The notes beneath the pieces were generated by a model that was not told the DNA's origin, ran no database searches, and saw nothing but the letters and a program-made list of their open reading frames with translations. The translations under genes and the position numbers were made by a program. A stretch of 23,149 nt of DNA from a virus. Position 1 is the stretch's first letter. Each line of letters opens with the position of its first letter. Below, in pieces: positions 4,379 through 22,300 of the stretch. The DNA is taken from IMG/VR virus record IMGVR_UViG_3300025274_000070, positions 1 to 23,149 of that record; one strand, given 5' to 3'.

Positions 4379-5068
4379 ATGCCTTCTTATTCTACACTTG
4401 TAACAGATATTCAAAATACTGCTGAAAATGATGGGACAGAATTTTCTAGTCATATAGATTATTTTATTAATAAAGCAGAAAATCGTTTAGTTAATCAACT
4501 AGATGATTATGGATTGAATACATTTACTTCAGTAGCTGTTTCAGCCAGTAATCCTTTTGTATCTTTGCCTAGCGGAACAAGAATTGTGAGAAATTTTAAT
4601 ATTCTTGTATCAGCTTCTGTCTCTGCTCCTGCAGGAACTGCAAACAGTAGAATTAGTTTACTTCCAAGAACACAAGAATTTGTTTATGATTTTTGGCCTT
4701 ATGTTAGTGCTTCCGTAGGTCAACCAAAGTATTACGCAATGAGAAGCAATACAGCTATTTACTTAGCTCCAACACCTACATCAACTTATGATGGAGAAGT
4801 GCTTCATGTTTCCAGACCTGCTACTCTTACATCTGCTGCTCCTAATAATTATTTCTCTGATTTTTGTTATGACGCACTCTTTTATGCTTGTATGATTGAA
4901 GCTTCTCTTTATAATAAAAGTTTTGATACAGTTCCTTTATGGCAAGGAGAATTTAATATAGCTATTGAAGCATTAAGAAATCAGGCTAGAAGAACAAGAC
5001 AAGACGATATGGCTGTTGCTGCAAGTCCTGCAGGTTCTGCTGATCCTGTTGTTCAAGGTCGTCCTTAA
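4379..5068 (+). CDS. Head-tail adaptor-like protein (first of two)
   Basis: This 229-residue protein begins YSTLVTDIQNTAEN and continues HIDYFINKAENRLVNQL, matching the helical N-terminus of phage adaptor/neck proteins ('FIxxAExRLxxxL'). The middle has LPSGTRIVRNFNI, YDFWPYVSAS, GQPKYYAM and YLAPTPTSTYDGEV strands. The C-terminal part (CYDALFYACMIEASLYNK to the end) is helical again. In this family the helices contact the portal ring and close the channel after DNA packaging. It starts five bases after the previous stop with no clear Shine-Dalgarno, which suggests coupling. Its last stretch is Ala/Pro/Gly-rich and probably disordered. The adaptor call comes from pattern and position; another connector role is possible. 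Confidence 0.65.
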   Translation: MPSYSTLVTDIQNTAENDGTEFSSHIDYFINKAENRLVNQLDDYGLNTFTSVAVSASNPFVSLPSGTRIVRNFNILVSASVSAPAGTANSRISLLPRTQEFVYDFWPYVSASVGQPKYYAMRSNTAIYLAPTPTSTYDGEVLHVSRPATLTSAAPNNYFSDFCYDALFYACMIEASLYNKSFDTVPLWQGEFNIAIEALRNQARRTRQDDMAVAASPAGSADPVVQGRP

Positions 5069-5328
5069 TGGCTATTAGTAGAAGTGCTATTCCAAGAGAA
5101 TTGAAAGGAAATAGAAAAGTGGCTAAAAATACAAAAACAGTTAAAAGAGCAACTGGTGGGTCTGTATCTAAAAAAAATTGGATACAAAGAGCAACAGCAT
5201 CTATTAACCAAAGAGGAACTAAAGGAGTTTGCACAGGCAAAAAGTTTGGAAGTAAAACTTGTCCTCCAGGTTCTAAAAGATATAACTTAGCAAGAACATT
5301 TAAAAATATGAGCAGGAAAAAAACATAA
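5068..5328 (+). CDS. Small Lys/Arg-rich virion-locus protein
   Basis: These 86 residues are strongly basic, with many Lys and Arg and few acidic residues. Visible features are a TVKRATGGSVSKKNW stretch, WIQRATASINQRGTKGVCTG, a CTG/TCPPG pair of cysteines (residues 55 and 65) and a basic RYNLARTFKNMSRKKT end. I remember small proteins ending in '...RYNLAxTLxxMxxKK' in marine phage structural clusters, with unknown role. Charge suggests nucleic-acid contact inside the head. It starts in a TAATG junction with the adaptor-like gene and ends in another with the next gene. The eight-A run at 5170-5177 keeps frame. Confidence 0.65.
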   Translation: MAISRSAIPRELKGNRKVAKNTKTVKRATGGSVSKKNWIQRATASINQRGTKGVCTGKKFGSKTCPPGSKRYNLARTFKNMSRKKT

Positions 5329-5762
5329 TGGGACCGAACCGTAGGAAACGTCAAGAGATGCTGGAAAGATTAGAAACTATGCCAATTCCTGATAAACCTC
5401 AAATACCAGAAAGAGAATCTGGAACAGCTTATCATCTATTCCAGAATAAAGAAGGAAAATATTTTTGGCAAAATAATCCTAAAACTAAAGGCCAACAGTT
5501 TGAAACAGTAGAGGAGGCTGTCAATGCAATGCAAGGGACAGAAGCTTGGAAAGATAAATCCTTCCAAGACCTTTATGGTCCTAACGCAAGTAGAAGAGCA
5601 CAAACTCCAGAAGATTGGAAAGCTTTACGGAAACTGCGAGAAGAGTATGAGAACCGCCTTAGAAGAAGAGGAGAATTTGTTTTAAAACGTGGAGGAAAAG
5701 TATCAAAAAGAAAAGGTGGAGGAAAAGTTTTTTATGGTTACAAAAAAGGTGGACAAGTTTAA
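5328..5762 (+). CDS. Basic hypothetical protein with C-terminal KGGQV motif
   Basis: This 144-residue protein starts MGPNRRKRQEMLERL, has a central folded-looking part with TAYHLFQNKEGKYFWQNNP and a WKALRKLREEYENRLRRRGE helix, and ends in a Gly/Lys-rich tail with KRGGKVSKRKGGGK and GYKKGGQV at the very C-terminus. The same GYxKGGQV ending occurs in the 83-residue protein at 6370-6621. The start shares bases with the previous stop (TAATG). The function is unknown. Net positive charge, co-location with adaptor genes and the tail motif suggest a minor virion component, but this is inference. Confidence 0.6.
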   Translation: MGPNRRKRQEMLERLETMPIPDKPQIPERESGTAYHLFQNKEGKYFWQNNPKTKGQQFETVEEAVNAMQGTEAWKDKSFQDLYGPNASRRAQTPEDWKALRKLREEYENRLRRRGEFVLKRGGKVSKRKGGGKVFYGYKKGGQV

Positions 5763-5777
5763 TAGGGAGAGAACATA

Positions 5778-5981
5778 ATGCCTACATTTAAAGGAAAACA
5801 TTATTCATATGATAAGAAGGGTTACGCAGCTTATGAAAAGGCTATGAAGGAAGTTACAGGTAATCCAACAGGACAAGGGTTCGGTGCTGCAAGAAAGGGA
5901 CCAGCAGTTCAGGGACCAGAACAGGACGTAGTTGTAGACTACCAGCCTGGTAAAGAAGTAATTTATAAGGAGGGAAATTAG
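5778..5981 (+). CDS. Small hypothetical protein (67 aa)
   Basis: A 67-residue protein whose first part (FKGKHYSYDKKGYAAYEKAMKE) is an amphipathic basic segment; the rest is Gly/Pro-rich and ends acidic-basic mixed (YKEGN). A GGGAGAG ribosome-binding site (5765-5771) stands 6 bases before the ATG. The 'GKHYxYxxxGxxAYEKA' opening is familiar from tiny phage proteins encoded beside head or neck genes, but I know no function. Unlike its neighbours it lacks the Gly-Gly-hydrophobic tail signature. The last codons carry the AAGGAGG (5967-5973) that serves the next gene. Confidence 0.55.
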   Translation: MPTFKGKHYSYDKKGYAAYEKAMKEVTGNPTGQGFGAARKGPAVQGPEQDVVVDYQPGKEVIYKEGN

Positions 5982-5983
5982 AT

Positions 5984-6370
5984 ATGACAAAGAGAAATAG
6001 AATGAGTCGTGTAGGACTATCTCCTGCAGAAGAAGCAAGAGCAGGTACTCAGTCTGAAGCTGAACGTAGAAGGTATAATAAGGTAGCAGGAAGGGGTAGC
6101 AGGAAGGGTAAACCTTCCAAACCTAAACCACAAAAACCACCTAAGATGACTGCTCAACATGGTGGTATGGTACAAGGTTATGACGCAAGAGAAGATGAGC
6201 AACTAGGCATGACCAGAGGACCAGAACATGATAAGGATATGTCTATGGCAGCCAGAAGAAAGGTTGCCAGAGCTACAAGAAAGCCAAGAGGAACTTATGG
6301 ATTTGATAAGGGTGGTGGTATAGGTATGGGACAAGCTCTAAGAGGGGGAGGGGCAGTTAGAAAAACTTAA
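5984..6370 (+). CDS. Very basic Gly-rich hypothetical protein (128 aa)
   Basis: Arg, Lys and Gly dominate this 128-residue protein. A stretch with SRKGKPSKPKPQKPPK is typical of disordered nucleic-acid-binding tails. It carries two copies of the window's Gly-Gly signature: AQHGGMVQGYD near the middle and DKGGGIGMGQALRGGGAVRKT at the C-terminus. The start is supported by a near-perfect AAGGAGG 10 bases upstream, the strongest ribosome-binding site in this cluster. The stop overlaps the next ATG (TAATG). Function is unknown; a DNA-condensing or cargo-type virion protein is a guess from charge. Confidence 0.6.
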   Translation: MTKRNRMSRVGLSPAEEARAGTQSEAERRRYNKVAGRGSRKGKPSKPKPQKPPKMTAQHGGMVQGYDAREDEQLGMTRGPEHDKDMSMAARRKVARATRKPRGTYGFDKGGGIGMGQALRGGGAVRKT

Positions 6371-6621
6371 TGGCATATCCTACAAAATATACTTTTCTTA
6401 GATTAACTAGTAAAGGTAAGATAAAGTCTAATCCTATAGATGTAGCTAAAGCATCTCCTAAAGAAAGAAAAAAGACTAATGGATTATATAAAAAGAAATC
6501 CTCAAGAAAAACTTTTAAAGGTCTTACAAATAATAGAGGATTAATAATAACAGCAGCAGGAGGTGGTCTTGTAGGAAGAAATAAGATTATTCAAGGTTAT
6601 AACAAAGGAGGCCAAGTTTAA
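6370..6621 (+). CDS. Small basic protein with C-terminal KGGQV motif
   Basis: This 83-residue Lys-rich protein has a TYFLR-like beta start (KYTFLRLTSKGKIKSNP), a long basic middle (SPKERKKTNGLYKKKSSRK) and a Gly tail AAGGGLVGRNKIIQGYNKGGQV read in two parts (AAGGGLVGR, then GYNKGGQV). The tail ends like that of the protein at 5328-5762. The AAA GGA GG of its KGG codons (6604-6611) is also a perfect Shine-Dalgarno for the adaptor gene, whose ATG overlaps this stop. Function is unknown to me. Confidence 0.6.
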   Translation: MAYPTKYTFLRLTSKGKIKSNPIDVAKASPKERKKTNGLYKKKSSRKTFKGLTNNRGLIITAAGGGLVGRNKIIQGYNKGGQV

Positions 6622-7295
6622 TGGCTTTATCAGGAACATATAATTTTGATCTCAATATAGATGAAGTTATACAGGAAGCAATGGAAATGATTGGGGGAGA
6701 ACAAACTCTTGGTCATGAACCAGCCTCTGCCAGAAGATCAATTAATCTTATGTTGAAAGACTGGCAGAACAGAGGTATTCTTTTATGGACTACACAAACT
6801 ACTTTAGTTACTGTATCTGCTAGTGTAACATCTTATGATATGGATGGCTCTGCTATAGATGCTCTTCAAGTTATTGTGAATAGAGATAATGTAGATATAG
6901 CTGCAACCAGAATTTCTTTTGAAGAATATCTTCACATTCCTCAAAAGGGACAAACTGGTAGAGCTAGTCAATATACTATTAAACGTAATCAAAGTAAGCC
7001 TACAGTATTTATTTGGCCTATACCAGAAAATTCTACAGATGTTTTAAAGATAGAAAAGATAAGTGAATTACAGGATGTAAATAAATCTGAGGGACAGAAT
7101 GCTGATCTTCCAAAAAGATTTCTTCCTCCTTTAACTTGTGGTTTAGCTTATTATATGTCAATGAAACGTCCTTTAGTTCCAGAGCAAAGAATAGGAATGT
7201 TGAAGGCAAATTATGAAGAACTTCTTGGTAGAGCTATGACAGAAGATAGGGAGCGAGCAAGTATGTTTTTTCTACCAAAGATTAGAGTTTATTAA
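6621..7295 (+). CDS. Head-tail adaptor / tail accessory factor, P22 gp4-like
   Basis: This 224-residue protein shows a conserved pattern: ASARRSINLMLKDWQNRGI near residues 35-53, a beta segment with TLVTVSASVTSYDM, then 'ISFEEYLHIPQKGQTGRASQYTI' (residues about 95-117 in parts), PTVFIWPIPENST, and a helical C-terminus with DLPKRFLPPLTCGLAYYMSMKRP and YEELLGRAMTEDRE. The order ARRSLNxMLxxWxxRG / YxxIPxKxxxGRPxxY / WPxP / LAYYxxxKxP is what I remember for adaptor proteins related to P22 gp4 in podophages. Such proteins form a ring under the portal and anchor the tail. It is clearly different in sequence from the other adaptor-like protein at 4379. The start is in a TAATG overlap with an embedded Shine-Dalgarno. 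Confidence 0.75.
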   Translation: MALSGTYNFDLNIDEVIQEAMEMIGGEQTLGHEPASARRSINLMLKDWQNRGILLWTTQTTLVTVSASVTSYDMDGSAIDALQVIVNRDNVDIAATRISFEEYLHIPQKGQTGRASQYTIKRNQSKPTVFIWPIPENSTDVLKIEKISELQDVNKSEGQNADLPKRFLPPLTCGLAYYMSMKRPLVPEQRIGMLKANYEELLGRAMTEDRERASMFFLPKIRVY

Positions 7296-7573
7296 TGGCT
7301 TCAAATAGAAGAGCATTAGCCATTTGTGATACTTGTGGATTTCAATATCCTCATAGAGTTATGAGAATGAATAGTTATGGGATGTTGGTATGTCCAGAAG
7401 ATTGGGAAGGTGCTTATGATTTAAAAAATAGTCCATTAAATAAATCTCCTAATGTTAAAGATAACATAGCAATTAGAAATCCTAGAGGACCGGATACTGG
7501 TGGAAGAAATATAACTTGGGAAGCTGCTACAACTTTATGGGAAAATGAATCTACTGATTGGAATCAAGTATGA
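7295..7573 (+). CDS. Small Cys-motif (zinc-ribbon-like) phage protein
   Basis: This 92-residue protein has CDTC (Cys11, Cys14) followed after 18 residues by CPED (Cys33, Asp36), the arrangement of a small treble-clef or zinc ribbon in which Asp takes the place of the fourth Cys. His20 lies between. I remember short phage proteins of the form 'ICDxCGFxYxxxxMxxxxxGLxVCxxxW' encoded between adaptor and tail genes, without known function. The rest is Asn-rich and ends in a WEAATTLWENEST stretch. The start overlaps the adaptor stop (TAATG). The final codon overlaps the fibre start (ATGA). Confidence 0.65.
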   Translation: MASNRRALAICDTCGFQYPHRVMRMNSYGMLVCPEDWEGAYDLKNSPLNKSPNVKDNIAIRNPRGPDTGGRNITWEAATTLWENESTDWNQV

Positions 7574-8934
7574 CTGACTTAACAGGGAAACAAATAGCTA
7601 ATACATATAAGCAACTTTTAAAAGTAGCTGTATCTACTAATGATGGTATTGATGCAACAGTAAGAACTATTGAAAGTGGAGATGGTACAAACTCTGCTCT
7701 TCAATTGAGTAATGGGGTTGTAAATGTAAATGGAACTTTTCAAATCAGTGGTGTTGCATTAACAGCTACTGTTTCTAAACTTAATGAATTAACTTCTATT
7801 GCTGGTACATTAACCTCTGTAGGTGCAGCATCTACTTATGGAACTGGAACAGGAATAGCTACTGATCCTTCTGCAGGTATAACCAATGAAGGATTTATTC
7901 AGTTACAGACTAATCAAAGTTTTGGAATAGTTTCTGTTTCAACTAATTTAGCTGGTGTACTGGGTGGATTTACAACAAGTTTAAGTGCAACGAATTTTGT
8001 TGCTGGTACAGGAAGTTTTACAACAAAGGTTTCTGGTGTAGCAGCAGAGTTTTCTGGGGCTGTTTCAGCAGCTAATGTCTATGCTACAACTCAGATCTAT
8101 ATTGGTGGAAGTGCAATTCCAAGTGCTAGTGATATTGCTGCAGTCAGTGCTTTAACATCAGTTAATAAAGCAGCAATTACATCTGTTAATACGGTTCTTG
8201 CAGCAACATCTGCGGCTTTGGCAACTAGTATAGGAACTACAAACACTCTTATCGCTACTACTTCTGCAGCTTTAGCCACAAGTATAGGAAATTCCAATAC
8301 AAATATTACAACTAATATTAATGCTATAACATCTATTAATACTGTACTTGCAGCTACTTCTGCTGCACTAGCTACAAGTATAGGTAACTCAAATACTCTT
8401 ATCGCGGCAACTTCTTCTGCTTTAGCAACAAGTATAGGAACTACAAATACTCGTGTTGCTGCTACCTCTGCAGCTTTAGCCACAAGTATAGGTAATCATC
8501 TTCCTCTGGCAGGAGGAACCTTAACAGGAACTGTATCGGGAACAGATTTTTATGTCAGTGCTGTAGCTATAGGAATTAATTCTCTTCTTGGAAAGAATTT
8601 AAGAATTGAAACTGCAGCAGTTGCAGATATTAATGCACTAACAGATGGCACAAATATTTCTGTAGATTTTAATGCAGGACAAAACTTTACTGTAACTCTT
8701 GCAGGAAATAGAACATTAGATAATCCAACGAATTGTGTTGCAGGACAAGTAGGAAGTATATTTATTGTACAAGATGGCACAGGTTCTCAAACTCTTGCTT
8801 ATGGAAGTAGTTGGGATTTTGCAGGAGGAGAAGCACCTACTCTTTCAACAGATGGAAATGCAATTGATAGGCTAGATTATATAGTTCATACATCTACAGA
8901 TGTCCAAGCTCTACTTACAAAGGCATATTCATAA
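7570..8934 (+). CDS. Tail fibre with repetitive stalk and C-terminal tip module
   Basis: I use the ATG at 7570, which overlaps the previous stop as ATGA, rather than a TTG 12 bases upstream; 454 residues result. The N-terminus (TDLTGKQIANTYKQLLKVA) looks like the conserved virion-binding start of marine phage fibres. Residues 211-308 contain five copies of an 18-residue-type repeat (AATSAALATSIG plus linker), typical of a trimeric stalk. A LPLAGGTLTG motif follows, common in trimeric fibres. Residues 357-454 (LTDGTNISVDF... through GNRTL, QDGTGS) form a beta-rich tip that is about half identical, without gaps, to the end of the second fibre at 12248. Role: host receptor binding. The stop overlaps the next ATG. 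Confidence 0.8.
   Translation: MTDLTGKQIANTYKQLLKVAVSTNDGIDATVRTIESGDGTNSALQLSNGVVNVNGTFQISGVALTATVSKLNELTSIAGTLTSVGAASTYGTGTGIATDPSAGITNEGFIQLQTNQSFGIVSVSTNLAGVLGGFTTSLSATNFVAGTGSFTTKVSGVAAEFSGAVSAANVYATTQIYIGGSAIPSASDIAAVSALTSVNKAAITSVNTVLAATSAALATSIGTTNTLIATTSAALATSIGNSNTNITTNINAITSINTVLAATSAALATSIGNSNTLIAATSSALATSIGTTNTRVAATSAALATSIGNHLPLAGGTLTGTVSGTDFYVSAVAIGINSLLGKNLRIETAAVADINALTDGTNISVDFNAGQNFTVTLAGNRTLDNPTNCVAGQVGSIFIVQDGTGSQTLAYGSSWDFAGGEAPTLSTDGNAIDRLDYIVHTSTDVQALLTKAYS
8200..8493 (+). repeat. In-frame 54-bp repeats in the fibre stalk
   Basis: Five units coding for the AATSAALATSIG core start at 8200, 8254, 8350, 8404 and 8458. Units one/two and three/four are directly adjacent, with 18-residue periods. 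Each pair is preceded by a TSVNTVL or TSINTVL heptad, and a 14-residue linker separates the pairs. Nucleotide copies have diverged at synonymous sites, so the duplication is not very recent or is under protein-level selection. Confidence 0.85.
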
Positions 8935-11315
8935 TGAGTGTATTTAGTAATAATCTTCTTTTAGGAGCAGGTGGTCAAGAGACTGCCCCCACTTTTGATA
9001 GTACTCTTATACCTAATTCAATTTGGATGGACGGGACAAGTGATAAAGTAACTAAAACAATGTCTGATGCAGGAGATGGATCAGAGTTTACACTTTCTAT
9101 GTGGATTCAAGCTAATGAAATTAGTAGAGGACACGCATTTCTTTGTTCTGGGGATTCTTCAGCTTATTCAAGTATAAGACTTGATTCAGATGATAAGATT
9201 TATTTTCAGACAAAAACAGGATCACAAATTTTAAATACTACTGCTGTATGGAGAGATAATGCTTGGTATCATTTCTTATTGAGTGTAGATACATCTCAAA
9301 GCACTCCTGCAGATAGAGTAGATCTTTACATAAATGGAGTGGCAGCAACATTAACTGGAACTTATCCTCCTCAAGATCATACTTATCAGTTTAATACTAA
9401 TACACTTCATGAGGTTGGAAGTAGTGTAGAAAATGGTTTGTGGAGAGGTTCTGTTGCTCAAGCATCTATGATTGGTACTAAGTCTATTCAGCAAGGAGAT
9501 TTTGCGGTAACAGATTTTCTGGATACTTTTACTTTTGGAACTAACGGTTCTCAATATGTACCTAAATCAGATGCAGATATTACAACACTAGTTAATACAG
9601 GAGGAGCTAATAGTTTTATGCTTTCCTTTGATGATTCTTCTAATTTAGGAGAAGATGAAAGTGATAATAGTAATAACTTTGGTTTAACAAGTATATCTTC
9701 TGCTAATCAGTCTACTAATACACCTTCTAAAGAATATGTTATATTAAACCAACTTGTTCCAAGTGTAGGAACTTTAACACAAGGTAATTTAATTTTTTCT
9801 GGAAGTACAAAATTTACTATAGGTACACTCTCTATAAATAACGCTGCTGGAGGAGTTTGGTATTTTGAAGCAACCATTGCTGAAGATAGTGGTTCGTCAG
9901 AATGGGCTGTTGGATTTGTAGGTTTAGATAGTAATATTAATGGAAGCGATATTACTTCTGCTTCAGATTGTGTATTATATACTGATGATAATAATAAAAT
10001 TGTTGATGGTACAGAAAGTTCTTATGGATCAGGATTTTCTTCAGGAAACACAATTGGATGTGAATTAGATTTAGCTGATAATGAAGTAAGATTTTATAAT
10101 AATTCTGGAGTGTCACTTGGAACTATTTCTAATACTTTTAGTTCTGATCTTATATCTATTTGTGTTAGAGCAAATGGAACAACTCTTACTTTAGCAATAG
10201 ACTCCTCTGATTGGACACATTCCACTCCAACAGGAGCTAAAGAAATTAGTACAGCTAATTTTACTGCCCCAAGTAATCAGGGTATAGACTTCTTTAATCC
10301 AGTTCTTTATACAGGAAATGGGACAGCAATAGGATCTGGAGGAAAGGCTGTTACAGGTGCAGGATTTGAGCCAGGATTTGTATGGATTAAAAATAGAGAT
10401 GCTACAGATAGTCATATGCTTTTTGATAGAGTTAGAACAACTACTAAATATATAGAGAGTGATACAGTAGATGCAGAAGCAACAGATACTGAATCTTTAA
10501 CTACTTTTGGTTCTGATGGATTTACAGTAGGAAGCAATGTAGCAGTTAATACAAACACAGAAGATTATGTTTCTTGGAACTGGGGTGCCGCTAGTGGAGC
10601 AGGAAGTACTACATCCCCTGCTGGAGATTTGGCTAGTACTTCTATTGTTGCCAGCGCAAAACATTTTTCAACAGTTTCTTATACAGGGACTGGTTCTGCC
10701 ACTACAACAGGGCATGGTCTTGGTGGTGCTGCAGAAATGATAATTGTGAAAAATAGAGATCAAGGAGATGCCTGGGCAGTTTATCATTCAGGAGTTGCTA
10801 GTGATGCAGAAACAGATTATCTAGTATTAAATACTACTGCTGCTATTTCTGATGATTCTACAATGTGGAATGATACTGCTCCTACTAGTTCTGTTTTTAG
10901 TATAGGGACTAATCATCAAGTTAATGCGAATACAGAAAAATATATAGCATATTGTTTTAGATCAATTGCTGGTGTATGTGCTGTTGGATCATATACAGGA
11001 AATGGAAATGCTGATGGTCCTTTGATTTGTACAGGATTTAAACCTAGATTTATCTTAATCAAGATATCAAGTTCTACAGGTAGTTGGTTTATGTATGATA
11101 CTGTTAGATCTTCTAGTAATGAAGTAGATGATCAGTTACTAGCTGAAGCTACAACAGTAGAAACAACTGGATCAGAGGAAATAGATATTCTTGCTGAAGG
11201 TTTTAAAATTAGAAATACAGATTCTGGAACAAATACAAGTTCAGCAACTTATGTATATTTAGCAATGGCAGACATTGGTGGAGGCGGAAGATTGCCTCCT
11301 ATATATGGAAAATAA
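8934..11315 (+). CDS. Mosaic tail protein: LamG-like, SPRY-like and DUF7483-like domains
   Basis: This 793-residue protein is a chain of predicted beta domains. Residues about 28-200 look like a LamG/concanavalin-type jelly roll (FTLSMWIQANE, WYHFLLSVDTS, VDLYINGVAA). Residues about 272-442 look like a SPRY domain (GVWYFEATIAED, WAVGFVGLD, IGCELDLADNEVRFYNNSG). Three related units follow, starting near 452, 577 and 682, with 'YTGNGxxxxxxxTGFxPxFVWIKNRD...YDxVR' patterns that I associate with the domain labelled DUF7483 in phage tail proteins. The C-terminus is Gly-rich. LamG and SPRY folds commonly bind sugars or proteins, so adhesion to host surface glycans is the likely role. It starts in a TAATG junction with the fibre gene. 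Confidence 0.75.
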   Translation: MSVFSNNLLLGAGGQETAPTFDSTLIPNSIWMDGTSDKVTKTMSDAGDGSEFTLSMWIQANEISRGHAFLCSGDSSAYSSIRLDSDDKIYFQTKTGSQILNTTAVWRDNAWYHFLLSVDTSQSTPADRVDLYINGVAATLTGTYPPQDHTYQFNTNTLHEVGSSVENGLWRGSVAQASMIGTKSIQQGDFAVTDFLDTFTFGTNGSQYVPKSDADITTLVNTGGANSFMLSFDDSSNLGEDESDNSNNFGLTSISSANQSTNTPSKEYVILNQLVPSVGTLTQGNLIFSGSTKFTIGTLSINNAAGGVWYFEATIAEDSGSSEWAVGFVGLDSNINGSDITSASDCVLYTDDNNKIVDGTESSYGSGFSSGNTIGCELDLADNEVRFYNNSGVSLGTISNTFSSDLISICVRANGTTLTLAIDSSDWTHSTPTGAKEISTANFTAPSNQGIDFFNPVLYTGNGTAIGSGGKAVTGAGFEPGFVWIKNRDATDSHMLFDRVRTTTKYIESDTVDAEATDTESLTTFGSDGFTVGSNVAVNTNTEDYVSWNWGAASGAGSTTSPAGDLASTSIVASAKHFSTVSYTGTGSATTTGHGLGGAAEMIIVKNRDQGDAWAVYHSGVASDAETDYLVLNTTAAISDDSTMWNDTAPTSSVFSIGTNHQVNANTEKYIAYCFRSIAGVCAVGSYTGNGNADGPLICTGFKPRFILIKISSSTGSWFMYDTVRSSSNEVDDQLLAEATTVETTGSEEIDILAEGFKIRNTDSGTNTSSATYVYLAMADIGGGGRLPPIYGK

Positions 11316-11334
11316 ATTAATAGGAGAGAAAATT

Positions 11335-11835
11335 ATGTGGGCAAGAGTTAATGTAGGACAGTTAGAAGAGATTATTAGTAGACCAAAAGCTTTAATAATT
11401 AATAATATCCAATATCCAAAAAGTATTTTTGGTATATCTTGGTCTGATATTGAAAGAAAGGCTATAGGTATAGTTCCTTATGTTTATTCTGGGACTAGAA
11501 AAAACGAGATGTTTTATAAACATAGAGAAGAAAGTCCTGATGTAAGAGAAAATTCTGTTGTGGTAAATTATATTAATATAGTTAGAGATATCAATGAGAT
11601 TAAAACTAAAATGAAAAATCAAATTAATGAAGTTTTGAGTGCTTCTCTATCCCAAACTGATTGGGTTGTTATTAGGAAAGCTGACACAGGTAAGGAAGCT
11701 CCTGTTGATCTTGCTCAGTGGAGAACTGATTTGAGAGCTAGGGCTGTAGAATTAGAAAATGCTATAGATGGCGCTTCTTCTGTAGGTGAATTAGAAAATT
11801 TAAATATTCAAGAATGGCCTAGGAATCCTAGATAA
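11335..11835 (+). CDS. Tail-fibre assembly-like small protein
   Basis: The ATG at 11335 is chosen because TAGGAG (11321-11326) stands 8 bases before it; an earlier in-frame TTG would run into the mosaic-protein gene. The 166-residue protein has a beta-type N-terminal half (SIFGISWSDIERKAIGIVPYV) and a helical C-terminal half with SLSQTDWVVIRKADTGKEAP and WRTDLRARAVELENAIDGA. The 'L..TDWVVIRxxxTGxxxP...RxxLRARxxxxExxI' pattern resembles the C-terminal part of phage fibre-assembly chaperones and DUF4376-type proteins. Its position between fibre genes agrees. It could instead be a minor tail part; the chaperone call is inference. Confidence 0.6.
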   Translation: MWARVNVGQLEEIISRPKALIINNIQYPKSIFGISWSDIERKAIGIVPYVYSGTRKNEMFYKHREESPDVRENSVVVNYINIVRDINEIKTKMKNQINEVLSASLSQTDWVVIRKADTGKEAPVDLAQWRTDLRARAVELENAIDGASSVGELENLNIQEWPRNPR

Positions 11836-11839
11836 TAAA

Positions 11840-12244: not shown

Positions 12245-12247
12245 AAT

Positions 12248-13179: not shown

Positions 13180-15054
13180 ATGTCTACACAATCACAACTA
13201 GCTAAATTAAAATTTAAACCTGGGATTAACAGAGAATCTACAGAATATGCTGAAGGTGGTACTCTACCAGGGGGTAACTGGTATGATGGTAATAAAGTTA
13301 GATTTAGGCAGGGAAGACCAGAAAATTTAAGAGGTTATAATAAAAGATCAACTTCTTCTTTTGATGGAACAGCAAGAGATTTACTTGCTTGGTCAGACAA
13401 TGATACATTCAAGTTTGCTTCTTTTGGGACAGAAAAAAAGTTATACGAATATAATGATAATTCAATCTTGGATATCACACCTATCAAAGAGGTTTCCGTA
13501 GGAACTAATGTTTCTGCCGTTGTCACAATTGATGGAACAAATAATGGATTTTATACTACTGATGGTTCAACAAGAGTATCTGTCTCTGTATCAAGTCATG
13601 GAGCAGAGACAGGAGATTTTATTACGTTTACTTCTGGGACAACAATTGGAGGGACAATAGATTTAACAGGTGGAACATTTGCTGTATCTGTTTTAGGAGA
13701 TAATCAGTTTTCTTTTGCAGCATCTGTAACAGCTAATGCTACACAAAGTAAGGTTGGGACTGCAACATTGAAATATCTTCTACCTACAGGAACAGATGCA
13801 GCAATCCAGGGTTTAGGCTATGGAGCAGGAGTTTATAATGCAGGAACTTCTACAACTGGAATGAGGGCATGGAGTGAGGCTGCAAGTTCTTCTAATATTG
13901 TTACAAGAATTACTCAATGGACATTAGATAATTGGGGAGAAGATATTCTTGCTTGTAGAAGGGGAGGAAGAATATATTTCTGGGATTCCATTAGAAGCTC
14001 AACTCCTCCAAGAGCAGGATTTGTAAGTGCTTCTCCATCCATTAATAATTATATTATTGTATCTCCTAATGATAGACATTTGATTTCATTGGGAAGTAAT
14101 GAGTATGGAACAGGAACATATAATCCATTATTGGTAAGATGGTCTGATCAAAATAATTATAATAATTTTACTCCTTCCATTAGTTCAACTTCAGGAGAAA
14201 ATATTCTGGCTGATGGAACAGAAATTATTGGAGCAACGAAATCTCGTAATGGTATTATGGTTTGGACAGATAATTCTATTTGGCAAATGCAATTTGTTGG
14301 GCCTCCTTTTACTTTTGCATTTCAACAAATGGGTACTAATTGTGGATTGATTGGTCCTCATGCTGCAATAAATTATGATGGTGTAGCTTATTGGATGGGA
14401 GATGATAACTTTTATGCCTTTGAAGGTCGAGTAATAAATCTTCCTTGTACAGTGAGAAGATATATATTTGATGATTTTAATACAACAAATAAAGATAAAG
14501 TTTTTGCAGGAATCAATTCTGAATTTAAGGAAGTGATCTGGTTATATCCTTCTTCAGATTCTACAGAATGTGATAAATATGTTATATATAATACAGCAGA
14601 AAAAGCTTGGTATTATGGGTCAACTATTTATACAACATTCTTTGATAAAGTAATTTTTGATAATACTTTAACAACTGGAGTTTCTGTTTCTGCATATCTT
14701 TATAATAATGAACCAGATGGAATATATACAGCTAATGGTGCGGCACAGACATCTTTTATTGAATCTGCTGCTTTTGATATAGATCCTGATGGAACACATA
14801 TATTGTTTGCAGACAGATTAATACCAGATTTTACTCTATCAGGAGGGAACTTAGGATTTAGTATCACTGTACAGAATTTTCCTGTGAATGATCAAATTAA
14901 AAAGGGACCATTTGTTATTTCTCCAACAACTAAGAAGGTTGATTTTAGAGCAAGAGGAAGGCAAGCTGTTGTTCGGGTTTCTTCAGGAGAAGCAGGAACT
15001 AGCTGGAGATATGGCTCATTGAGACTTTCATTACAACCTGACGGGCTACGGTAA
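13180..15054 (+). CDS. P22 gp10-like tail hub / DNA-stabilisation protein
   Basis: This 624-residue protein begins LKFKPGINRESTEYAEGGTL followed by GGNWYDGNKVRFRQGRPENLRGY, the pattern I associate with P22 gp10-type tail hub proteins of podophages ('PGIxxxxTxYAxExxWxDxxxVRFRxGxPExxGGW'). The rest alternates short strands and Trp/Tyr-containing turns, such as RWSDQNNYNNFTP, NGIMVWTDNSIWQMQFVG and NSEFKEVIWLYPSSDS. That is consistent with a beta-propeller-like body. In P22 and T7 the equivalent hub plugs the portal channel below the adaptor. Residues 105-195 carry a Ser/Thr/Val-rich beta insert. No clear ribosome-binding site is present, only AAGGA 18 bases upstream, so coupling to the fibre gene is likely. 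Confidence 0.75.
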   Translation: MSTQSQLAKLKFKPGINRESTEYAEGGTLPGGNWYDGNKVRFRQGRPENLRGYNKRSTSSFDGTARDLLAWSDNDTFKFASFGTEKKLYEYNDNSILDITPIKEVSVGTNVSAVVTIDGTNNGFYTTDGSTRVSVSVSSHGAETGDFITFTSGTTIGGTIDLTGGTFAVSVLGDNQFSFAASVTANATQSKVGTATLKYLLPTGTDAAIQGLGYGAGVYNAGTSTTGMRAWSEAASSSNIVTRITQWTLDNWGEDILACRRGGRIYFWDSIRSSTPPRAGFVSASPSINNYIIVSPNDRHLISLGSNEYGTGTYNPLLVRWSDQNNYNNFTPSISSTSGENILADGTEIIGATKSRNGIMVWTDNSIWQMQFVGPPFTFAFQQMGTNCGLIGPHAAINYDGVAYWMGDDNFYAFEGRVINLPCTVRRYIFDDFNTTNKDKVFAGINSEFKEVIWLYPSSDSTECDKYVIYNTAEKAWYYGSTIYTTFFDKVIFDNTLTTGVSVSAYLYNNEPDGIYTANGAAQTSFIESAAFDIDPDGTHILFADRLIPDFTLSGGNLGFSITVQNFPVNDQIKKGPFVISPTTKKVDFRARGRQAVVRVSSGEAGTSWRYGSLRLSLQPDGLR

Positions 15055-15086
15055 AGTATGGCAACATATCCACAACTCCGTAGTCT
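15043..15086 (+). promoter_or_regulatory. Nested RNA hairpin enclosing the start codon of the 93-aa gene
   Basis: CTACGG (15046-15051) pairs with CCGTAG (15078-15083); the stem can grow to nine pairs (15043-15051 with 15078-15086), two of them G-U. Inside the loop, GTATG (15056-15060) pairs with CATAT (15065-15069) around a GCAA tetraloop, covering the ATG at 15058. The left outer arm is the last codons of the gp10-like gene. No Shine-Dalgarno is seen. A ribosome finishing the upstream gene would open the outer stem, so this looks like a coupling device. Confidence 0.4.
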
Positions 15087-15339
15087 TGTCAGGATTGGAG
15101 ATTATACAGCGAAAGAATTTTATGAGATGTTAGAAGATTGGGGTGCTGTCTTAGTTAATACTTTAGAGCAAAGAGATAATCAAGTAGATGCTACACCATC
15201 TACAAATATTTACACTGTAGTTTGTGTAACAAGTGTAGGACGCCCTCAAGGAGGAGATATAGTGTATATTGCAAGTAGAGGAAAATTTGCAGGGTATGTT
15301 AGTTTAGGAGCAGAAACTTCTTGGCAGGATTTGAATTAA
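15058..15339 (+). CDS. Small protein encoded after the tail hub gene (93 aa)
   Basis: The 93 residues have an N-terminal helix (TAKEFYEMLEDWGAVLVNTLEQRD) and a beta-type remainder (NIYTVVCVTSVGRPQGGDIVYIASRGKFAGYVSLG), with no signal or membrane segment. I remember similar tiny proteins placed directly after gp10-like hub genes in marine podophages, so a small tail-hub or tail-tip part is likely, but no function is known to me. The start is only four bases from the upstream stop, is covered by a nested hairpin and lacks a ribosome-binding site, so translation is probably coupled. The stop overlaps the next ATG (TAATG). Confidence 0.65.
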   Translation: MATYPQLRSLVRIGDYTAKEFYEMLEDWGAVLVNTLEQRDNQVDATPSTNIYTVVCVTSVGRPQGGDIVYIASRGKFAGYVSLGAETSWQDLN

Positions 15340-17852
15340 TGGCAAATAATTTACATAGAGCAAGACCAGTAAAAAAGCCACCAGAACCTCTTCCTGTATC
15401 TTTAAGAGTTATAATGAAGCGTCTTAAAATTGATGATCCTTCTAACTTATTAGATTTTGCTAGAAGGGTTAGAGATGTAGAAAGTTCTGGTGGTACAAAG
15501 AAAGTAAATCCTAATAGTAATGCAAGAGGAATTTATCAATGGATGACATCAGATTTTGGAAAGGGTGAAAAGAAAGGAACTATTGAAAGTGCCACTCATA
15601 ATTTAATAAAGTCTTATAATAAAGAAGGAATAGAGATACCAGATTGGTTGTTAAGTTTAGATAGGAATGCAGAAATATTGCGCCAGAATGAGGGGTATAT
15701 AAAGACTTTAACACAAGAAGATTGGCAGAATCAAGTACTCGATTTAAAACCACATATGGAGGATGCACTATTTTGGTCATACCTAGATCAACAGCCAGGA
15801 ACTGATGAGAAGTGGTTAACAATAACTTATGGTAATGATACGCCTTGGCCCAAAAAAAATGATAAGCCGCGTTACTGGGCAATGTTGGATACTTATATTA
15901 AGCATCACCATAGAGGAGGAGAAAAGGTAGAAAAGGAAAAATTTAGAGATGTTAATATAAGAAAGAAATTTGGTTTACCAGCGTATCATAAAGATGAAAA
16001 TCCTTTTCAACCTGCACTTCCAATGTCTGATATAAGATTAGATGAAGAACTTCACGCACCATATCAACTCTATGAATTACCTACGCTTCTAAATGAAAAA
16101 CCTATCCTTAGAGGGACACCGGAGGACACAATGAATACAGGATTAAAAAGTTTACAAAAACAAAGTGACGGCCAAATATTTGAAGATATTGATATAGAAC
16201 ATTGGACAGAGGAAATGGAGGATACTTACCGGAAAAGGCTGGCACGAGAAAATGCAGAAAGGGAAGAGACTCAAAGAGCTTATGAGTTAAGCAGATATGG
16301 AGTTTTTCCAGAGTTATTTGAAGATATTGATGTAGAACATTGGATAGATCCTATTCTTACAGATTATGATAAAGTTTCAGAAAAAGATAGAGATAAGTTA
16401 TGGTCTTCAATTCCTCGACACTGGCGACAGGCTTATTCTTTAGATGATTTTAAACAACGAGAAGATTATTGGAGAACTTTGAGACAAAAAGAAGAAGAAG
16501 AGTCTCAAAGGTTGTGGGAAAGATATTATAGAGGTAAAGCTCTAGCGGAGAAACATCGTGATGCAGAGATATTATCCACTGATGATGCTATTGAACAACA
16601 ATTAGTAACTATTCCCGAAGCACCATTTACTGAAGATGATTTGAGAATTCTGGCACCATTTACTGAAGATGATTTGAGAATTCTGAGACAAAAAGAAATT
16701 GTTGATGACATTATTGCTTCTGATCTCAACTTAATGTACCTTCCTCATAATAGAAAGTTCGGAGGATTAGTATCTTTGGCTAATGGAGGAAATCCTTACG
16801 TCTACGAGGATATAGTAGAAGATGCTATGTATGAATCACCTCAAGAAAGTTATGAATATCAAGATTACAGTTCACAAGAAGAAACGCCGTTACCGTATAA
16901 TTTAGCAACTACTCCCGGAGCACCACTTATTCCTGTTTATGGAGGAAATGTAAACCCAGATTATATGGCTCTGCATCCTAATTATAGTATAGTAGAGGAT
17001 TTGGCACAAGCTAGACAATATAGTTCTCCCTTAAACTTTGTAAAGGAAACATCCCCTGCTACATTAGGTTCACCAATGGATATTAGACCTACTTCTTTAG
17101 AAATAGCAAATTATAATAGATTACGAGAGAATGTAGCCCAACGACAAAGAGAGAATGATGACCAAGGGATAAACTGGAAAAATGTAGGACTAAGCGCATT
17201 GAAAAATACAGGAAAATTTATAGGGTCAGGTTTGGTTAATGCACTAACAGGAATCCCAGTGCCAATGGTTTGGCCTATGGCGACAGTAGGTCGTGGTATG
17301 TTTCAACATCATAAAAATATAAGAGACTATGGACGAGATTATAGGGATAATGCTGATATAGTTGCCCAACTTAAAGAGCAAGGTAAGTTTGTTGATATAG
17401 AGGGACCAAGTAGGGAATGGTGGGATGATGATTCCGAAGAGGAATACTCTTCTCCCTGGCGGAAGACCCCCAACCTAGGTCTAAGGTATCTTGATCAACC
17501 TTTTAATGAACCTGAAGATATGAGGTATGGTGTATATAAGGCAGGAGGTTTAATATCTCTGCAAGGAGGAGGAAATCCAATAGCAAATAATTTTACTCAA
17601 CATATTCGAGAAGGTATAAATAGTGGAATAAGAAGTATGGTAGCAAATGCTTATGCTCAAGGAAATGTTCCTCCTCCTTCTTCTCCACAACTTACTCAAT
17701 CACAACTATTAAATCAAGGACTAACTATGGCTCCTAATACAGCTAATAGACCTGTACCACAGCAACCTCATGCACAGAGTAACATTAGTAATGTGTATGC
17801 TCAAAGTACACAACCACAATCTTATTATATGCAACCCAACCAGATTAGGTGA
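15339..17852 (+). CDS. Large ejection-type protein with N-terminal lysozyme/transglycosylase-like domain
   Basis: I start it at the ATG in the TAATG junction (837 residues), not at a TTG 18 bases upstream. Residues 38-190 carry a lysozyme-like fold signature: DVESSGGTKK with probable catalytic Glu48, then NSNARGIYQWM, as in soluble transglycosylases ('ESxG...ARGxxQ'). Later segments are charged and helical with internal repeats (FEDIDIEHW at 281 and FEDIDVEHW at 327; APFTEDDLRIL at 428 and 439). Two Gly-Gly signatures occur (FGGLVSLANGG, AGGLISLQGGG). Around residue 615-650 is a hydrophobic Gly-rich segment. The C-terminus is Gln/Pro/Asn-rich. The likely role is a virion protein injected with the DNA that cuts peptidoglycan locally, as T7 gp16 does. 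Confidence 0.7.
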   Translation: MANNLHRARPVKKPPEPLPVSLRVIMKRLKIDDPSNLLDFARRVRDVESSGGTKKVNPNSNARGIYQWMTSDFGKGEKKGTIESATHNLIKSYNKEGIEIPDWLLSLDRNAEILRQNEGYIKTLTQEDWQNQVLDLKPHMEDALFWSYLDQQPGTDEKWLTITYGNDTPWPKKNDKPRYWAMLDTYIKHHHRGGEKVEKEKFRDVNIRKKFGLPAYHKDENPFQPALPMSDIRLDEELHAPYQLYELPTLLNEKPILRGTPEDTMNTGLKSLQKQSDGQIFEDIDIEHWTEEMEDTYRKRLARENAEREETQRAYELSRYGVFPELFEDIDVEHWIDPILTDYDKVSEKDRDKLWSSIPRHWRQAYSLDDFKQREDYWRTLRQKEEEESQRLWERYYRGKALAEKHRDAEILSTDDAIEQQLVTIPEAPFTEDDLRILAPFTEDDLRILRQKEIVDDIIASDLNLMYLPHNRKFGGLVSLANGGNPYVYEDIVEDAMYESPQESYEYQDYSSQEETPLPYNLATTPGAPLIPVYGGNVNPDYMALHPNYSIVEDLAQARQYSSPLNFVKETSPATLGSPMDIRPTSLEIANYNRLRENVAQRQRENDDQGINWKNVGLSALKNTGKFIGSGLVNALTGIPVPMVWPMATVGRGMFQHHKNIRDYGRDYRDNADIVAQLKEQGKFVDIEGPSREWWDDDSEEEYSSPWRKTPNLGLRYLDQPFNEPEDMRYGVYKAGGLISLQGGGNPIANNFTQHIREGINSGIRSMVANAYAQGNVPPPSSPQLTQSQLLNQGLTMAPNTANRPVPQQPHAQSNISNVYAQSTQPQSYYMQPNQIR
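16179..16343 (+). repeat. Internal 9-residue repeat (FEDID-EHW) in the lysozyme-like protein
   Basis: Codons for FEDIDIEHW (16179-16205) and FEDIDVEHW (16317-16343) are nearly identical at nucleotide level, with 46 residues between starts. The flanking sequences differ. It looks like an old partial duplication or a repeated linear motif. Confidence 0.6.
16621..16686 (+). repeat. 33-bp in-frame tandem duplication
   Basis: The 33-base unit 16621-16653 is repeated at 16654-16686 with a single difference at the last base, giving APFTEDDLRIL twice in a row (residues 428-438 and 439-449). The near-identity means a recent slippage event or active exchange. It keeps frame in the lysozyme-like protein gene. 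Confidence 0.95.
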
Positions 17853-17858
17853 TAAATT

Positions 17859-19361
17859 ATGGCACAATATATTAATAGAAACGCACCAGGAGCAGGTCTT
17901 GCAAGTTTGATGGCTGCAAGAGGAAGAGGAGGAGATACTGAACTAGTCCATATGACTAGACCAGAGGTTAAGAGATTAGAAGCTTCAGGGTTAATGTCTT
18001 TAAATCCTCAAACTGGACTACCTGAGTATTTCCTTGGAGGTTTAAAGAATTTTGCTAAAAGCTTGGTTAAGCCAAGAAATCTAGCTGCGTTAGCTGCTGG
18101 AATAATGTTTGGTCCTGCAATTTATGGTGCTATAGGAGGTGCTATGGGAACAGGATTATTCGGAACTTTGGCAACTGGTGCGTTAGGTGGAGCCGCTGTT
18201 GGAGGTCTAACTGGAGCTATAGCTGGTCAAGATATTCCAAAAAGTATTGTGTTTGGAGGAGGAACTGGATTAGCGGGTTCAGCAGTTGGTTATGGAACAG
18301 GAAAATGGGCTGATAGCCGTGCTCTTGCACGAGGCCATCAAGCACAAAAAGTTATTGATGCAAACAAATATAGGCAGCAGGTAGCGGGGGTATATCCAGA
18401 GAAACTAGCAGAGATAAGTAATATGCCAGTATCGGAATTACAAACAGCAGTACAGAGATCTGATGCGATATCTAAAATGGCTACACAACAACCAGATATC
18501 TTGAAAAAGATTGGAATAACTAATCTTCCTCCTCAATCTGTAAGAACAGCAGCTTTTACACCAGTTTCCCCTGAAACTATAAGAAGCAGTATTCAAGGAC
18601 CAGGATCAGCAGGATATTATGATGTAGCATCTAGAATACCTGGTGGGGGTATTCCTACTCCAGGGGCTGTGAGGAAAGCAAGATTAGGTACAGATTTATT
18701 TTCAGCTAGGACACCTATTCAAAGTATGAAAAATGTAGGAAAATATTATGAACAGAGTCCTTCAAAATTACTTTCTGTTCCTTCACAAGTATTAACTACT
18801 AGAGCACTTGTAGAAGAGGATGAGGCTGCTGAAGAACTACGAAAGAAACAAGAAAAGGCTATGTTAGCTGGTTCTCAACGTGAGACATATACACAAAAAG
18901 ATAGAAAATATAGACAACCTTCTTTACGTTCAGATCCTCCTACTTTAGAAGCAACTCTTGCTAGATATTATGGAGGAATAGGATCTGGAGACTGGGGAGG
19001 TCGCTGGTATGGATCGCTTAGTGGTAAAGATATCTATCCTGATGTGATTGCTAAAAGAGGAGGGCTTGTCTCTCTTGAAAAAGGAGGGAGAGCTTTTGAA
19101 GGAAAGGTAGAAGGGCCAGGACATGGGATGCAAGATAATGTTATGATGCCTATTGAGGGAGGAGGCATTGCAGCAGTATCTCCAAAAGAATATGTAGTAC
19201 CAGCAGATGTTATGGCTATGTTAGGTAATGGAAATGCAGATGATGGTTCTGAAAAGATGGATAGATTTATATCTACATTTAGAAAAACAAAATATGGAAG
19301 AGATAGACAACCTCCAGAAATGGATGGATCAACAGCATTGCAATCATTAATTAAAGCATAA
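17859..19361 (+). CDS. Glycine-zipper membrane-active virion protein
   Basis: This 500-residue protein has three visible parts. The N-terminus carries RGRGGDTELVHMTRPEVKRL and SLNPQTGLPEYF, a signature I remember from many marine phage virion proteins ('GDTxLxHM...NPxTGLPE'). Residues about 74-150 are very hydrophobic and Gly/Ala-rich with many GxxxG spacings (GPAIYGAIGGAMGTG, GALGGAAVGGLTGAIAG), suited to membrane insertion or pore formation. The C-terminus has KRGGLVSLEKGG and then GPGHGMQDNVMMPIEGGG with SPKEYVVPADVMAML, another repeated marine phage signature. Placed among the large ejected proteins, a role in crossing the cell envelope is likely. AGGTGA 6 bases before the ATG is a fair ribosome-binding site. 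Confidence 0.65.
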   Translation: MAQYINRNAPGAGLASLMAARGRGGDTELVHMTRPEVKRLEASGLMSLNPQTGLPEYFLGGLKNFAKSLVKPRNLAALAAGIMFGPAIYGAIGGAMGTGLFGTLATGALGGAAVGGLTGAIAGQDIPKSIVFGGGTGLAGSAVGYGTGKWADSRALARGHQAQKVIDANKYRQQVAGVYPEKLAEISNMPVSELQTAVQRSDAISKMATQQPDILKKIGITNLPPQSVRTAAFTPVSPETIRSSIQGPGSAGYYDVASRIPGGGIPTPGAVRKARLGTDLFSARTPIQSMKNVGKYYEQSPSKLLSVPSQVLTTRALVEEDEAAEELRKKQEKAMLAGSQRETYTQKDRKYRQPSLRSDPPTLEATLARYYGGIGSGDWGGRWYGSLSGKDIYPDVIAKRGGLVSLEKGGRAFEGKVEGPGHGMQDNVMMPIEGGGIAAVSPKEYVVPADVMAMLGNGNADDGSEKMDRFISTFRKTKYGRDRQPPEMDGSTALQSLIKA

Positions 19362-19371
19362 GGATAAAAAG

Positions 19372-22300
19372 ATGGGAATTACATCAATATTAGGTGGGCC
19401 AAGACCAGCAGGTACTCCTGTAGGAGCAGCAACTCAGATAACAACTACTGAGCTTCCTTCAGAGTTCAAGCCTTTTATTACAGATATTTTTGAGAAGGCT
19501 AAAGCTCAACAAGAAGGACTAGAATATACACCTTATCCAGGGGCAAGACTTGCACCCTTTGGTCCCTTACAGCAAGAAGCTTTTACAGGTTTAACTGATC
19601 TGGTAAGGCAAGGTGTAGTAGGTGCTCCTGATACTTCTAGTGCTTTCTATGCTCAAGAAGCTTTAGAGGCTGCTAGAAGGGCTGGAAGACCTATAGAGGC
19701 TGCAGATATAGAAAGATTAACTAATCCTTATCAACAACAAGTTATTGATATTGCAAAAAGAGAAGCTGAAAGATCTTATGAAACAACTGTTGCTCCACAG
19801 ATTGAACAACAGGCAGTAGCTGCAGGTTCTTATGGTGGATCAAGAGGAGCTATTCTTGAATCTGAAGGATTAAAAAATCTACAACAGCAGCTATCAGATA
19901 TTCAAATGAAAGGAAGTGCTCAAGCCTATCAACAAGCTCAAAAAGCTTATGAACAGGAAGCAACTAGAGCAAGAGGATTACAAGGATTTATGCAACAGCA
20001 ATTTGGGCAGGTTCCTTCTCAAGCTGTAAAAGAATTAGGAGTTCTGCAGTCTGTTGGTGAAGCGCAACAATTACTTGATCAGAAAGCATTAAATTTAGGT
20101 TATGAAGATTTTCTTGAGGAAAGAGAATTTCCAACAAGATCCTTACAAGAATATCAAGCTTCTATAAGAGGCTTTCCTTATACACCAGCAGCTTATCAGT
20201 ATACCCAACAGACTGCTCCTACACCTTCTCTTGGACAAACCTTACTTACTGCTGGTGCTCAAGGTCTAGGAATGTATGGTACATTAGGTGGGTTTGGTTT
20301 TGGTGCTCCCCCACAGAAGGCTGCTTCTGGTGGACAGATCAGAGGAGGACTATCTGGACTAGTTGAATCTCATCAGAATAATACATTTGGAGATAGGTAT
20401 AGAGCAGGTATGGGTCTTGGGCCTGGTCAGAAGTTTGGAGGGGAAAGACATGGAGGTAGAAGCTTTGGAGGTAGAAGCTTTGGAGGTAGAAGCTTTGGAG
20501 GTAGAAGCTTTGGAGGTAGAAGCTTTGGAGGTCACAGATTTGGAGAGCAAGAAATAGATCCTCGTAGTCTTATTAATATGCTGTATGATCCAGAATTAAC
20601 TGAAGATGAGCAACAACTAATACAAGAAAAGTTAAAGGATATGGGTATACGCTCTACTGAAGATCTGTGGGGCAAGGACGAAGAGATGGTACAGTTCCCT
20701 TTGGTTCCTGGCGCTACAATAGCAGCTAATCCTAATATAGAAATGGTTACGATGCCAGCAGTTTCTCCAACGCCCCGACTAAGGCCACCACCATCTATAC
20801 CTAGTATTACTTCTCCTCAAATAGACCAGTTGAATCAAAGGATTAAATCTTTAAAACAACAAGGCGTTTTGGATGCTGCAAGCATACTAGAAAAACAAAG
20901 AGATGAACTGATAGACCAAATAAGAAATGCAGCAGATCCTGTTCTTAGGCGCAGAAACCTTGCTAAAGAAGTATTGGAGGCACAACGTCTTGCAGAAGGG
21001 GCTATATATGAATCTGGAGAATATGAACCTCTAGCTATATCTCTGTCTCCTGTTATTTTAGATGAGACAGAAATACCAAGTCCAGATAGAATAGATCCTA
21101 CTGATATTTCTTTTGATGCATCTATAAGAAGATTGATGACTGCTCAAGACGAGGAAGCCACTGCTCACGAAGAGCGTCTTGCTACTTTAAAAAGTATATA
21201 TGGCCCAGATAGTGAGATAGTTAAGACTTTTAATCAATATAGAGGTTCACTAGTTGATCAAGGTGAGGCAGCAAGACTAGCTTATGGACACAAGGAAAGG
21301 CTTAGAAGGGAACGGGCTGGTGATGTAGAAGCTAGAATAACGGGTACTACAACTGATTATGAGCAACATAGAGAAGATCTTGCAGAGGTACAGGGTAAGA
21401 TAGGGGAAGCGCATACTAAATCTTTAGCTGATGCAGAAGAAGCAAAAGAGAAAGCTGCAGAGATGTATAGACAGGAACAAGAATCTTTAAGGAATCAAAG
21501 AAGTTTTGAAGTTGCTGCAGCATTTGGGCAAGTTGGTAAAATACCTAAAGAAGAAGCTGGACTCTCTGGCTTTCAAGGATTTGTAACTACTTTAGGCAGA
21601 ATTGCTTCAGAAGCTACTGAAGCGATGGCTCCACAATTAAGAGGACTAACTGAGAAGGAAAGAAAATCAAAAATAAAACAAGTTGAAAGAGATATTTTAG
21701 ATACCAGTAAGATCAATGAAATAAATTTGGGTATTCTTAATTATGATAAAAATGTTCTTACTGAACTAAGGGAATTAAATAATAATTATAACCAGACCCT
21801 AGATCGTCTACAGGACCAGATGTTCAACTTAAAGGTAACTGAGGTTATGACACCTGTAGAGAAAGCGGAAGCTTTATCTAATATAAGGCTTACAGAACTT
21901 GATGTAACAAAACAGCTACTAGAGATTCAGCTTACCGTTGATACTGCTACTATTGCTGCTGCACAAGCTAAAACAGAAAATGAAGCGAAGGTAGCACAGC
22001 TAATAGTTGATCTAGCAAGAGCAAATTCGACCCGACTTCCTAGAATTACAACAGGTGATCTTTCGAAAGTAAATACTATAATTACCGATCTTTTTAAAGA
22101 GCATCCACTTTACCATACTAGAGAGTTTCAGGAGACATTAAGAAAAGGTAGGGTCGAAATGATAACATTTTTAAGTAATTCGACAGAGCCAAATCCAACG
22201 GTGGCAATGGGTGATGCTATAGAACTACTTAATCAGAGGGTGCTGCCTGACGCAGTATTAGAAGGAGAGCATAGTACCTTTTCTGTACTAAGAGAGAATA

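Follow-up and report, generated by a model that had tools for sequence, protein, structure and literature searches.

A C-terminal Gly-Gly tag on otherwise unrelated small basic proteins in the late gene block of uncultured short-tailed marine phages

The window analysed here, 23,149 nucleotides long (IMG/VR record IMGVR_UViG_3300025274_000070, positions 1 to 23,149), is the late (structural) stretch, that is, the structural half, of an uncultured short-tailed marine phage. It encodes GroES, a protein in the scaffold position, the major capsid protein, an SU10-type adaptor, tail-fibre-like and stabilisation proteins, and three large proteins. The SU10 adaptor, GroES and the phrog_371 capsid protein share a single late block, so that the window carries the module of SU10/Pam1-type short-tailed phages, to which the gene orders of DSL-LC04 and HTVC027P are related. 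The relatives of the window are IMG/VR contigs whose capsid proteins range from 54% identity to near-identical, and the Pelagibacter phages HTVC023P and HTVC027P and phage DSL-LC04 are more distant, cultured relatives. Between the capsid and adaptor genes, two small proteins end in GY(K/N)KGGQV. An end of eight residues, Gly-Tyr-Lys-x-Gly-Gly-x-Val, is common to dozens of small proteins, otherwise unrelated, in a group of marine bacterial viruses that have not been cultured; we refer to it as the C-terminal tag, to the rest of each protein as its body, and to the interval between the two border genes as the tagged-gene block. The block in the window contains the following features (aa, amino acids).

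3014..3967, plus strand: major capsid protein, 317 aa (phrog_371, E 3.2e-18), left border of the tagged-gene block
5152..5175, plus strand: TGGSVSKK in the 86-aa basic protein (5068-5328)
5328..5762, plus strand: 144-aa basic protein with three GG motifs, the last of which is the C-terminal tag
5685..5729, plus strand: KRGGKVSKRKGGGKV, a pair of GGKV units that precede the tag in the 144-aa protein
5736..5759, plus strand: C-terminal tag GYKKGGQV-stop of the 144-aa protein
6161..6172, plus strand: GGMV in the 128-aa protein (5984-6370)
6308..6367, plus strand: KGGGIGMGQALRGGGAVRKT, type-2 C-terminal tag (GxGxAxRGxG) of the 128-aa protein
6559..6618, plus strand: GGGLVGRNKIIQGYNKGGQV-stop, long form of the C-terminal tag, in the 83-aa protein (6370-6621)
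6621..7295, plus strand: SU10-type adaptor protein (Pfam PF24175, E 1.1e-8), right border of the tagged-gene block

A first-pass annotation had proposed that one short Gly-Gly signature recurs in otherwise unrelated proteins of the window. All of the strings it quoted were located: KGGQV at the ends of the 144-aa and 83-aa proteins, GGMVQG, GGGIGM and GGGAV in the 128-aa protein, GGSVSKK in the 86-aa protein, FGGLVSLANGG and AGGLISLQGGG in an 835/843-aa protein, RGGLVSLEKGG in a 500-aa protein, and SGGQIRGGLSGLV in a 1028-aa protein. What had been overlooked is that both KGGQV ends belong to the longer common octapeptide. The recurrence exceeds what Gly content predicts, as GG[LIMQK][VI]x{0,2}[LG] occurs seven times in the window against 0.67 expected from composition-preserving shuffles (0 of 2000 reach seven), and GG[LIMQ][VI] has eight copies against 1.26. 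Shuffles and reversed-peptide controls together led us to reject low-complexity chance. The open reading frames (ORFs) used throughout are the output of a mechanical caller. In two long relatives, G001 and G002, [KRA]x?GG[LIMQKTS][VI] occurs 9 and 28 times in late ORFs (1.05 and 2.02 expected for the late strand) and not once in early, opposite-strand ORFs, so that the early genes of these two relatives lack the motif. G002 also carries a run of small basic proteins with ends GYK[AK]GG[KRT][VI]. The recurrence of Gly-Gly therefore stands, more strongly than first described, and the unity of the signature is doubtful: two seemingly separable elements had been merged, a basic C-terminal tag particular to this lineage and a near-neutral internal motif that many phages have.

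The C-terminal tag was sought across IMG/VR by means of a degenerate DNA pattern that encodes GYKxGGx[VI]-stop, identical proteins from overlapping contigs being counted once and near-identical ones left inside clusters. At least 120 stretches match, and 70 of the 79 loci checked have a real ORF ending in the tag. For the reversed peptide, which keeps the residues and the stop, the count across the whole of IMG/VR was 36 stretches and no ORF. The same pattern matched 92 stretches in 84,980 bacterial and archaeal genomes, with eight ORFs among the loci examined, whose resemblance is limited to the pattern; a cellular origin was rejected, this GTDB genome scan yielding unrelated matches only. 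The 124 distinct tagged proteins all carry the tag at the extreme C-terminus, the set being chosen by its end, and the G, Y, G and G of the tag are likewise fixed by the selection pattern. The variable positions are restricted to Q, K, R or T at residue -2 and to K, A, S or E at -5. Strong bias also extends outside the pattern, with K or G at -12, I or V at -11 and M at -10. Tagged proteins are 38 to 330 aa long, and trimming of their Gly-Gly-rich ends leaves 103 bodies in about 52 BLAST clusters, one of which is a LysM domain (E 1.3e-15). This peptidoglycan-binding domain precedes the tag in the small proteins L013:2939-3628 and L170:2071-2652. Two tiny proteins, L088:1409-1582 and L097:522-659, consist almost wholly of tandem KGYxxGG units (e.g. 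MFKKTKGYFMGGAVNKRAKGYKMGGKVKGYKAGGKVKGYKKGGKV), as if the tag had turned into a repeat protein; tblastn of the tags, and of a repeat protein assembled from this unit, gave no match in cultured phages. [KR]xGGx[VI] units and the terminal GY[KN]xGGx[VI]-COOH make up a modular tag on many unrelated small basic proteins, the most elaborate form that the Gly-Gly signature takes in this lineage.

Nearly all tagged genes fall inside the interval bordered by the genes for the major capsid protein and the SU10-type adaptor. When loci were sampled through the adaptor gene, irrespective of the tag, the tag is found in 40 of 321 block ORFs and in 1 of 395 other ORFs; of 27 complete blocks, 17 carry it at least once. 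The block is mosaic in that gene number and bodies vary between genomes. Among 664 block proteins, the C-terminal 4-mers GGQV and GGKV are common to 24 and 19 body families, respectively, and the best N-terminal 4-mer to four. Two further C-terminal tags occur in the same block. Type 2, GxGAAxRGxG, is found in 13 families and also at the end of the 128-aa protein of the window. Type 3, KGGQVMSG[SN]DLVSSLYD-stop, is found in 14 families by a loose pattern, on differing bodies (L104:2894-4584, L171, L177, L620). A scan of IMG/VR for the exact type-3 tag returned 13 stretches only, all of them with an ORF ending in the tag; 12 show the capsid or adaptor gene of the lineage, and the remaining 1.8-kb piece also has a type-1 tag. 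A KxGGx[VI]-like unit tends to precede each of the three types. A second genomic site for small basic proteins bearing Gly-Gly is the interval between portal and GroES, where genes of this kind (DSL-LC04 L082:7313-7918; L110:3647-3763) encode YAKGGLVTSKG, MKSGGSVQGP or GYKKGGKV.

In genomes with several tags, 44 of the 62 within-genome pairs share residue -2 (20.7 expected; 0 of 5000 shuffles) and 41 share residue -5 (26.6 expected; 5 of 5000 shuffles). Third-codon identity, in contrast, is 0.600 within genomes and 0.592 between them. As the amino acid variants agree within a genome and the silent positions do not, selection acts on the peptide. This pattern speaks against gene conversion or a DNA linker; it fits co-evolution with one partner per genome without proving it. 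Gly codons also differ among the motif copies of the window, and these copies are therefore not recent DNA duplicates.

The second element, the internal GGxVS[LF]xxGG (the first x being aliphatic or one of a few other residues), matches at least 119 IMG/VR stretches, with an in-frame ORF in 103 of the matches listed; its reversed control gave 90 stretches in total and an ORF in 30 of the 80 examined. Among the matches listed, the strict form GG[LIM]VS[LF]xxGG is present in 96 proteins of 61 families. Proteins with the internal motif match phrog_4287 ejection proteins, SLT transglycosylases, lytic tail proteins, endolysins, tape-measure proteins and portal proteins, so that this related form resides in putative ejection, transglycosylase and tape-measure proteins. 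Neighbours of similar length that lack the motif include ejection and virion proteins, but also primases, helicases and terminases. The two elements differ in charge, the median net charge per 30 aa being -1 around the internal motif (80% zero or negative) and +7 around the C-terminal tag. In the window the carriers of the internal motif are the three large proteins, for which searches of PDB sequences gave no match.

16758..16790, plus strand: FGGLVSLANGG in the 835/843-aa protein
17541..17573, plus strand: AGGLISLQGGG in the 835/843-aa protein
19056..19088, plus strand: RGGLVSLEKGG in the 500-aa protein, directly before its conserved C-terminal region
19095..19358, plus strand: conserved C-terminal region of the 500-aa protein, FEGxVxGxGHGMQDNV...AAVSPKEYVVPADVMAMLGNGN
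20326..20364, plus strand: SGGQIRGGLSGLV in the 1028-aa DNA-ejection protein, directly after the phrog_4287 domain

The 1028-aa protein matches the DNA ejection protein profile phrog_4287 over residues 20-309 (E 1.7e-17). Ejection proteins bear the motif after this domain, and in distant relatives near the end. The 500-aa protein matches phrog_342 weakly (E 1e-4) and holds its motif at one aligned position in most homologues; conservation of the motif between homologues, which the first-pass annotation had made a point to be checked, is thus borne out. By tblastn, the C-terminal region of the 500-aa protein weakly matches a 'tail length tape measure protein' of a Caulobacter phage, and neither a Pfam or NCBIfam family nor a solved structure was found for it. 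The fuller form of its ending is GGGxAAVSPKEYVVPADVMAMLGNGN, and relatives of the region, with GPGTGTSDxx...LSxxEFV, are found in many phages. The 835/843-aa protein had been called lysozyme-like. We could not confirm this, as an SLT or lysozyme profile was not matched, the Pfam and NCBIfam searches gave no match, PHROG matches were insignificant, and no solved relative was found. Profile searches likewise found no family for the 144-aa tagged protein. AlphaFold models of the 83-aa and 500-aa proteins have low confidence, with a mean predicted local distance difference test score (pLDDT) of 50.8 from a 5-sequence alignment and 38.6 from a 12-sequence alignment, respectively, which is consistent with disorder but may come from the shallow alignments alone. 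Close behind the Gly-Gly motif of the 1028-aa protein, at 20437-20540, are about five RSFGG repeats (GGRSFGGRSFGG...), and this run is also an open frame on the other strand (20359-20550).

We tentatively favour, at somewhat short of an even chance, a role in docking or packaging, in which accessory cargo is brought to the head or to the ejection apparatus by way of the Gly-Gly signature, a short linear motif. The tag would be read by one common phage-encoded partner, such as the scaffold, the inner capsid surface, the portal or the ejection complex, and this partner would bring tagged proteins into the particle. Changing the body while keeping the tag would then swap the accessory cargo. The large proteins with the internal Gly-Gly peptide are thought to enter the cell along with the DNA, and the LysM domain as a tagged body suggests contact with the cell wall. 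Of the roles offered in the first-pass annotation, a packaging or ejection tag or a motif for a common partner remains the best reading, and a maturation cleavage site is not supported. Several observations weigh against our reading. The exact tag is missing from the cultured relatives HTVC027P, HTVC023P and DSL-LC04 and from 10 of the 27 complete blocks. Ejection proteins also occur among the neighbours that lack the motif (10 of 67), and the contrast in charge raises the possibility of two distinct elements, one internal and one C-terminal. The body counts hinge on BLAST of basic sequences, and relaxing E to a very loose 10 reduces the 52 clusters to 17. Lineage could partly underlie the within-genome agreement of tag variants. 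Virion location is deduced from genome position, since the majority of tagged bodies belong to no family; that tagged proteins enter virions, that they have a single partner and that they are delivered is what we infer.

A broader form of this reading, possible although we would not count on it, is a phage-encoded sorting system in which one receptor reads a few C-terminal codes (GYKxGGxV, GxGAAxRGxG and SGSDLVSSLYD, each behind KxGGxV-like units) and loads interchangeable accessory proteins for delivery to the host, the code drifting with the receptor in each lineage. The tag would work in a way comparable to that of the T4 capsid targeting sequence (CTS), which too is a short peptide on otherwise different proteins; entry of the cargo into the head is what we propose here. 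The CTS of T4 internal proteins is N-terminal and removed by the gp21 protease, whereas the tag described here is C-terminal and unrelated in sequence. Cargo-loading peptides of encapsulins and microcompartments are also short terminal peptides common to unrelated cargo; their sequences differ, the carrier in our case is a phage late operon, and no encapsulin-type shell system was identified. The P22 gp7-like ejection proteins and T7-type internal virion proteins, matched by the 1028-aa protein through phrog_4287 and weakly by the 500-aa protein through phrog_342, are motif carriers, but these families are defined by other protein regions.

The main rival for the basic tagged proteins is nucleic-acid packing, which we consider unlikely overall. 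In that case the K/R-GG units would be counterparts of RGG/KGG boxes, and the packaged DNA would be condensed or lined by the small basic proteins. Composition agrees with such a role: 98% of the tagged proteins have an isoelectric point (pI) above 9.5, and the medians are a pI of 10.5, 25% K+R and three GGx[VIM] copies per protein. The (RSFGG)n run behind the motif of the 1028-aa protein points the same way, and RGG/KGG-box regions are also basic, Gly-Gly-rich, repeated and probably disordered. What sets the tag apart from such boxes is its strictly conserved GY..GG.[VI]-COOH end, whose exactness and aliphatic last residue exceed the specificity that charge needs; the type-3 tag has an acidic last residue (...SSLYD), and a positive Gly-rich context surrounds the C-terminal tag but not the internal motif, whose context is neutral or acidic.

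It is quite unlikely that the tag works in the infected cell, for instance to bring small takeover proteins to a complex of the host, unrelated to the virion. The block is accessory and variable between genomes, and most bodies lack a structural family match, as such a role would have it; the tagged genes, however, lie inside the head-to-adaptor block, apart from early genes, one body is a LysM domain, and related motifs are present in putative ejection proteins.

Descent of all tagged proteins from one fast-diverging, repeatedly duplicated family, of which only the end is still recognisable, is improbable. Tandem arrays of about five tagged genes do exist, and the body clusters merge at very loose thresholds, but the LysM body is a different module and the lengths run from 38 to 330 aa. 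Even if true, common descent needs a constraint on the end for it to persist and so does not replace the functional reading.

Maturation cleavage at Gly-Gly by a head protease or JAB-type peptidase is very improbable. GG serves as a cleavage or release context in other systems, and double-glycine leader or ubiquitin-like GG processing calls for a dedicated peptidase in the genome. The tag, however, is at the very end, where a cut after GG would take off two residues only, motif copies per protein are many, and the 317-aa capsid protein is short with no evident prodomain. S78, Clp-type and JAB protease matches were not found in G001-G003, records that may be fragments and in which S77 (T4 gp21 family) and C39 were not specifically searched. 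Finally, tag-coding DNA as a recombination linker for body swaps has next to no probability, since the mosaic block with its varying gene number and bodies would suit it but the differing Gly codons and, above all, the comparison of silent sites disfavour it.

If the tag is a virion-loading code, sequence alone would predict virion cargo among the unknown small proteins of uncultured marine phages, and the tag would be a handle for finding the partner. Many uncharacterised genes would become one testable question, namely, what reads the Gly-Gly tag. The internal GG[LIM]VS[LF]xxGG would help to flag lysin, ejection and tape-measure proteins in viral metagenomes, most of whose proteins are unannotated. 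Word searches of the open-access literature found no paper describing such a tag, an absence that carries little weight, and in PMC9599517 (on HTVC023P-type phages) the terms motif, glycine and virion gave no relevant passage. Elsewhere in the window, the fibre-like protein at 7573-8934 contains AATSAALATSIG repeats, and a long open frame runs antisense to it at 8097-8483.

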